Source: Sulfurimonas sp.
GTDB taxonomy: Bacteria; Campylobacterota; Campylobacteria; Campylobacterales; Sulfurimonadaceae
Direction: 5' to 3'
Length of the DNA stretch: 39,522 nt
Assembly: GCA_026988315.1 (NCBI GenBank)
Contig: JALSLJ010000088.1
Span: 1-39,522, forward strand
Below, piece after piece: positions 28,918 through 29,215 of the stretch; position 1 is the stretch's first letter, and each line of letters begins with the position of its first letter. Below the pieces are notes generated by a model. That model saw only the letters and a program-made list of their open reading frames with translations. It did no database searches and was not told where the DNA came from. The position numbers were made by a program, and so were the translations under genes.

Positions 28918-28960
28918 ATTATTTTATTTTGGTTACTATAACCTATCTCGGCTTAATTAT

Positions 28961-29190
28961 AAGTACCTCTCCATAAATAACTCAACTTCAGAAGCTTAAA
29001 AAGAGGGCTAATACAAGGCGAAAGCTCGTAGGAACTACTGGTAGTTTCAAGAGTTTTCAACGAAGTAGTAGCTCTCTTTTTAAGCTTCCCTTCGGGCGAA
29101 AAGCAAATAGCCCTAGTCCTGCAGAAATCTGCCTAGCACTAGAGCTATTTGCTTTTCGCTGAAGCTGGGGTTATTTATGGAGAGGTACTT
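28961..29190. repeat. 230-bp MITE-like element with terminal inverted repeats and two internal hairpin arms (long form)
   Basis: Both ends carry AAGTACCTCTCCATAAATAA facing inward (28961-28980 and the complement at 29171-29190), and the similarity extends to about 30 bases. Inside are two perfect arms: GAAGCTTAAAAAGAG (28991-29005) pairs with 29074-29088, and GCGAAAAGCAAATAGC (29096-29111) pairs with 29144-29159. Their loops contain the core blocks shared with the 108-bp element. The predicted shape is a closing stem with two long arms. No protein-coding potential is apparent, and no target duplication was certain. Confidence 0.8.
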
Positions 29191-29215
29191 AAAATAAAGT
29201 TCAATACTTTTTTTG

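Follow-up and report, generated by a model that had tools for sequence, protein, structure and literature searches.

The window, a stretch of 39,522 nucleotides of Sulfurimonas sp. DNA, contains two divergent genes whose products both carry HD domains, and between them lies a 228-bp element (28962–29189, boundaries that fit all copies) with ends AGT...ACT and a TA on either side (28960–28961 and 29190–29191). The initial annotation had placed a non-coding structure at 28961–29190 between two HD-domain genes; the place and the neighbors were right, and the span is corrected here to the element proper between the TA pairs. The 30-bp terminal inverted repeat that it reported is present (28952–28981 paired with 29170–29199, 30 nt, 93%), as are the two arms, which are not the perfect 15–16 bp repeats described: arm 1 pairs 28991–29014 with 29065–29088 and arm 2 pairs 29096–29120 with 29135–29159 (24–25 nt, 92%). 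The closing stem of the element measures 22 bp. The window strand folds as RNA at −125.3 kcal/mol versus a mean of −58.9 kcal/mol for shuffled sequences (z = −14.7; none of 200 shuffles was as low), and the same strand folded as DNA gives z = −13.4, which bears out the claimed shape of a closing stem with two hairpin arms. In the following list, R1 is a covariance model of one arm, built from 33 arms, and A1 and A2 are two alignments, the latter of 67 arms found and aligned by the model.

28960–28961, no strand: left TA target duplication (TA at both ends of 22 of 22 AGT...ACT copies; single TA at the empty sites of sister copies)
28962–29189, no strand: very probable mobile element of 228 bp, derived by deletion from a 264–268-bp element (fold z −14.7; own-genome and relative copies; own-copy alignment)
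28962–28983, no strand: closing stem P1, left half, terminal inverted repeat (fold, inverted-repeat search, own-copy alignment)
28991–29088, + strand: arm 1, intact core hairpin, sense on the + strand (R1 match 28991–29087, +, 101.7 bits, the arm itself belonging to the R1 training set)
29014–29019, + strand: conserved CAAGGC on the 5' side of the internal loop in the core (A1; A2)
29059–29065, + strand: conserved AACGAAG on the 3' side of the internal loop in the core (A1; A2)
29088–29096, no strand: short inter-arm hairpin CCC-TTC-GGG (fold; inter-arm gap 7–12 nt in 34 complete elements, mostly 9)
29096–29159, − strand: arm 2, core inverted, with ~35 nt deleted so that the TAACG half of the core is missing (alignment to the intact own-genome copy C80; weak R1 match on the − strand, 34.1 bits)
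29168–29189, no strand: closing stem P1, right half (same basis as the left half)
29190–29191, no strand: right TA target duplication (same basis as the left TA)

The window's own genome holds four copies (the window copy, C56, C80, and C109), and arm 1 is nearly unchanged in all of them. Arm 2 is worn to different degrees in an alignment read by eye: C80 is still complete, half of the arm-2 core is gone from the window copy, C56 has an inverted arm-2 tip, and C109 equals C56 apart from one more deletion, which lies between two GCTA repeats. Because C56 and C109 have a common derived, core-less arm 2 at two different loci, their sequences suggest that an element without the arm-2 core could still move, unless conversion copied the derived arm.

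Anatomy and strand polarity of the arms

Complete elements are built in the order P1, arm 1, a 9-nt hairpin (CCC-NNN-GGG), arm 2, and P1'. Intact members of the AGT...ACT group measure 264–268 bp despite very different sequences (19 of 22 copies, the three short ones all coming from the window's genome). Both arms have the same core hairpin, with unpaired AAGGC and TAACGMAG, which is inverted in arm 2, and paired arms run + and then − in R1 scans. Because the arm-2 core sits on the other strand, each strand has a single sense core, located in the 5' half of that strand. The arm unit is ~97 nt long; read in the sense direction, it consists of an outer stem of ~13 bp, ~10 bp with wobbles and mismatches, an internal loop in which AAGGC faces TAACGMAG, a helix of 8 bp, and a short hairpin at the apex. 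The outermost ends are entirely different between elements with similar arms; they vary widely yet stay self-complementary (AGTACC, AGTGCCTGACC, AGTAAGAGAGC, AGGGCACCTCTAAAAACC, ATACCAAACCC, ACTGACC, and others).

Unusual arrangements were also seen. An element at ~470–800 of L081 (G068) has ends of ~30–40 bp (TATGAGACCACTGCACAG...) and carries its right end twice in tandem, and downstream of the first element in L025, two different family members abut end to end (GGCACTTAAGGGCACCTC). Solitary core-motif hairpins occur between convergent genes in the window's genome (L042, G000:C24:13756-13856; L045, G000:C76:77701-77816).

Covariation, which the initial annotation had proposed as a check, is strong in both alignments. 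Compensatory change was found in 27 of 30 pairs of A1, whose covariation score was 0.895 versus 0.249 when shuffled and at most 0.232 when slid. The score of A2 was 1.057 versus 0.236 when shuffled; its 67 arms come mostly from other genomes, their alignment leans to the model structure, and a few of them also built R1. The fold is thus kept through compensatory changes while nearly all letters change.

The wobble pairs of the arms are strand-specific. In 118 arms read on the sense strand, the ratio of G.T to A.C was 168:15 in the inner arm (p ~ 7e-34) and 83:6 in the inner helix, and the outer arm had no G.T excess (27:46); the arm filter used a fold and so slightly favored G.T, and the outer arm, which passed the same filter, serves as the control. 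The counts in A2 were 120:11 (inner) and 16:15 (outer), and this polarity is independent of the lean of A2 to the model structure. R1 scored the sense strand of arms at up to 98 bits and the opposite strand mostly at 24–34 bits where reported, except for a degenerate-symmetric arm of L068 (53 and 48 bits). The AG-GC and AA-CG letters are 85–93% conserved in A2, for which no motif pattern was used; the motif letters of the 118-arm set are partly fixed by its search pattern. The inner G.T excess on the sense strand therefore indicates that selection acts on a single folded strand. Collectively, the inner arms are conserved in one orientation as a single folded strand, which may be DNA or RNA; the polarity is equally compatible with either.

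Copies, TA insertion sites, and an element within 16S rRNA

DNA-similarity searches matched 22 of 99 relatives, and many short matches to the arm-1 core proved on inspection to be complete but divergent elements. The single-copy occurrence that would have spoken against the initial reading was not seen, given the four own-genome copies and those in many relatives. Among 150 genomes of the order Campylobacterales, 44 have R1 arms, as do 56 of 397 across the phylum, where every listed carrier belongs to the same order, in several families; some genomes carry ten to 25 arms. Named records with the arm-2 core 20-mer include Sulfurimonas, Sulfurovum, Sulfurospirillum, Nitratifractor, and other Campylobacterales.

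The initial annotation did not recognize the family, and this stands. The plasmid, phage, viral, and E. coli collections searched gave no element match, and a phage or plasmid origin was rejected on this ground, one weak plasmid match being a chance-level piece. No Rfam model matched the window region or seven relatives at its gathering score (microRNA models matched the hairpin below threshold only), which led us to reject a structured RNA of a known family. Searches of the open-access literature yielded no description of the element family. The weak plasmid match came from a record that resembles an assembly-duplicated chromosome stretch; L289 (NZ_CP043618.1), labeled as a Sulfurimonas lithotrophica plasmid, resembles an inverted duplication of chromosomal genes and is probably an assembly artifact.

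To find empty sites, the joined flanks of fourteen copies were searched against the genus. Filled sites have two TAs and their empty counterparts in relatives just one: single-TA sites were found for L019 in G053 (94% identical), for L046 in G011 (86%), and for L023 in G018 (83%), and L024 and L011 have single-TA uninterrupted sites at related loci in the window's own genome (C56 and C77). L004 roughly fits the same pattern. Three filled sites deviate from the simple TA model, L113 by one A in an A-run, L012 by an additional 2 nt, and L112 through a small indel; the joined-flank search within the genus found no empty site for the window copy itself. As noted above, TA flanks all 22 copies of the AGT...ACT group, and the target appears to be TA in AT-rich DNA only. 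Because the empty sites in relatives show a single TA, we conclude that the element inserts at TA and duplicates it, and its mobile, TA-duplicating nature is almost certain. The flank comparison that had been proposed thus yielded both a target duplication and empty-site counterparts. The TA pair could equally be a 2-bp recombination crossover, as the data do not separate a crossover from a transposase duplication.

A different repeat of ~200 bp with ends TTAACACACGGT...ACCGTGATGTTAA lies at ~1300–1500 of L158 (G034), at the exact TA where the relative L046 carries a twin-hairpin element. In G183 (L287), a Y1 transposase gene is likewise flanked by the CGGAAGCAAGGTTTYAACCTTGCC part of this repeat, which may therefore be RAYT-linked.

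Simple ORF calls place 15 of 32 copies between genes that run in the same direction, 10 between divergent pairs, and 2 between convergent pairs; the remaining 5 overlap an ORF, in several cases close to where the ORF ends. Some insertions sit at tight junctions: L002 lies within the overlap of xseA and xseB (names from our own reading of the translation), and L011 lies between a likely Shine-Dalgarno sequence and the ATG. In G134 (~2.1 Mb in two contigs), a complete twin-hairpin element lies within 16S rRNA, with identical sequence at three loci (L072 / L075-L077). The one locus scanned gave a full-length bacterial 16S match (model 1–1533) broken by the element, both of whose arms were recognized (59 and 53 bits), and the insertion point, judged by eye, is in the helix-10 region. 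The G134 element, in distinction from the window copy, is therefore a stem-closed insert within an rRNA gene, as rRNA intervening sequences (IVSs) are. In a transcript, the closing stem would join the flanks with the element folded away, and this would account for insertions surviving in 16S rRNA and at operon junctions.

The IVSs of Helicobacter fennelliae measure 271 bp in 23S rRNA, with a 21-bp closing stem, and 355 bp in 16S rRNA, with a 24-bp closing stem; both have inner stems, and a 122-bp part resembles the H. canis 23S sequence in opposite orientation (PMC3335488). These H. fennelliae IVSs are like the twin-hairpin elements in size and in having a closing stem with inner stems, and the G134 element likewise sits within 16S rRNA; however, twin-hairpin elements lie mostly outside rRNA. 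The reported size and layout, rather than sequence, suggest a possible kinship with the H. fennelliae IVSs.

The mobilizing enzyme and rival explanations

The element is a MITE-like insertion with REPIN-like twin inverted hairpins. It has the marks of a MITE, being short, gene-less, multi-copy, and bounded by terminal inverted repeats, with a target-site duplication visible at empty sites (TA, three sites imperfect). The original reading, a MITE or a structure mobilized in trans, was largely right given the copies in many relatives and the single-TA empty sites; it did not foresee the same core inverted in both arms, the strand-specific selection, or the copy within 16S rRNA. Window positions 28962–29189 are probably a copy of a non-autonomous, MITE-like transposable element whose hairpins are recognized by an enzyme encoded elsewhere. 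Such an enzyme would recognize the core hairpins in single-stranded or extruded DNA, one core per strand and hence one recognized hairpin per end, and would insert the element at TA. Recognition as single-stranded DNA is our favored, if tentative, reading of the conserved arms, and an RNA-level role is its main rival.

Were the element an ordinary MITE, the DDE transposase of an insertion sequence would bind the terminal inverted repeats and the hairpins would be incidental. The inverted ends with the recurrent AGT...ACT agree with this, as does the TA duplication, a typical trait of IS630/Tc1-mariner elements and of certain IS5-type ones. However, IS630-type DDE_3, the transposase expected in carriers of an IS630/Tc1-type MITE, exceeded its cut-off in just one of 15 element-rich genomes, and DDE_Tnp_1 is absent from 6 of 17 carriers, the insertion sequences found having inverted repeats around the DDE_Tnp_1 gene that are unrelated to the element ends. 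In a pattern search, AAGGGCACCTCTAAAAA ends paired only ~270 bp apart, in three genomes, and never at insertion-sequence spacing. Neither this search nor the surveys of DDE_3 and DDE_Tnp_1 loci found an insertion sequence with matching ends, so that of the original trans-mobilization idea, MITE-like mobility stood and the partner with the same ends was missing among the families examined. Ends that differ fully between elements with similar arms also speak against an ordinary MITE, which would leave the covariation and polarity of the arms unexplained, and we regard it as doubtful. Far less probable is a REPIN/BIME-type element with unusually large REP units and a RAYT (Y1 tyrosine transposase) as its mobilizer. 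The pair of inverted hairpins and their single-strand character would fit, and Y1_Tnp proteins occur in 10 of 17 carriers, but they are absent from the other 7, including the window genome, and from the nearly complete G134. HUH transposition would not be expected to duplicate a TA. None of the ten Y1 genes examined has a convincing core arm next to it, on which ground RAYT mobilization was rejected, and the Y1 gene of G183 is flanked by a different repeat family. REP units are 20–40 bp long and tagged by GTAG or CGTC (PMC3733652), whereas the arms are ~97 nt and no such tag was noticed at the arm foot; the REPIN tests thus failed.

It is conceivable that the fold acts in RNA instead, through sense cores that bind a nuclease or an RNA protein, or through neutralization of the folded insert in transcripts, as with an rRNA IVS, and that selection keeps the copies that fold. 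The G.U polarity, the complete element in the 16S match of G134 with its three identical loci, and the insertions at tight gene junctions and between a likely Shine-Dalgarno sequence and start codon (L002, L011) argue for this role. Yet the cores lie on opposite strands, so that one transcript has one sense core; the outer arms lack strand polarity, and 10 of 32 copies sit between divergent genes. We give this role a minority chance, though a substantial one. It appears improbable that a serine or tyrosine recombinase integrates a circular or single-stranded form of the element site-specifically, with the TA as the crossover: the TA in 22 of 22 copies equally fits a 2-bp crossover and the strand-specific folded hairpins recall integron attC sites, but the target looks to be only TA in AT-rich DNA and the core motif is unlike attC. 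An attC identity was itself rejected by eye, since the R''/R' boxes do not map onto the core. Against recognition of the hairpins by an enzyme encoded elsewhere, the surveys of DDE_3, DDE_Tnp_1, and Y1_Tnp did not find the mobilizer, and the C56 and C109 copies make an intact arm-2 core seem not strictly needed for movement.

Several known systems resemble the family in part. Correia/NEMIS and RUP are bacterial MITEs with TA duplication, and like the twin-hairpin elements they are short, gene-less, multi-copy, and mostly intergenic, with inverted ends; the twin-hairpin family differs in its two inverted core hairpins, strand-specific conservation, very constant length, hypervariable ends, and lack of a matching autonomous element among the insertion sequences examined. 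The inverted terminal repeats of AAV and other parvoviruses also have one closing stem and two internal hairpin arms; this is an analogy of shape only, as the twin-hairpin element has no replication protein and is not at genome ends, and no kinship is claimed. REPINs and BIMEs with RAYT likewise have two inverted hairpin units that form a larger fold (PMC3733652), and the twin-hairpin family is set apart from them by its unit length, its TA duplication, and the carriers that lack Y1.

DDE-driven MITEs are read as double-stranded ends. We entertain, as a speculative extension of single-strand recognition, a system apart from both these and RAYT/REPIN, in which an enzyme would read folded single-stranded cores, one per strand, and insert at TA, and which may also be the source of Campylobacterota rRNA IVSs. 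Taken together, these results describe a widespread and apparently undescribed family, whose fold, length, and geometry persist while its sequence is largely replaced. Its measurable strand polarity makes single-strand recognition testable, R1 provides a search model for tracing the mobilizing enzyme by co-occurrence, and the family is a concrete candidate for the origin of the rRNA intervening sequences of Helicobacter and Campylobacter.
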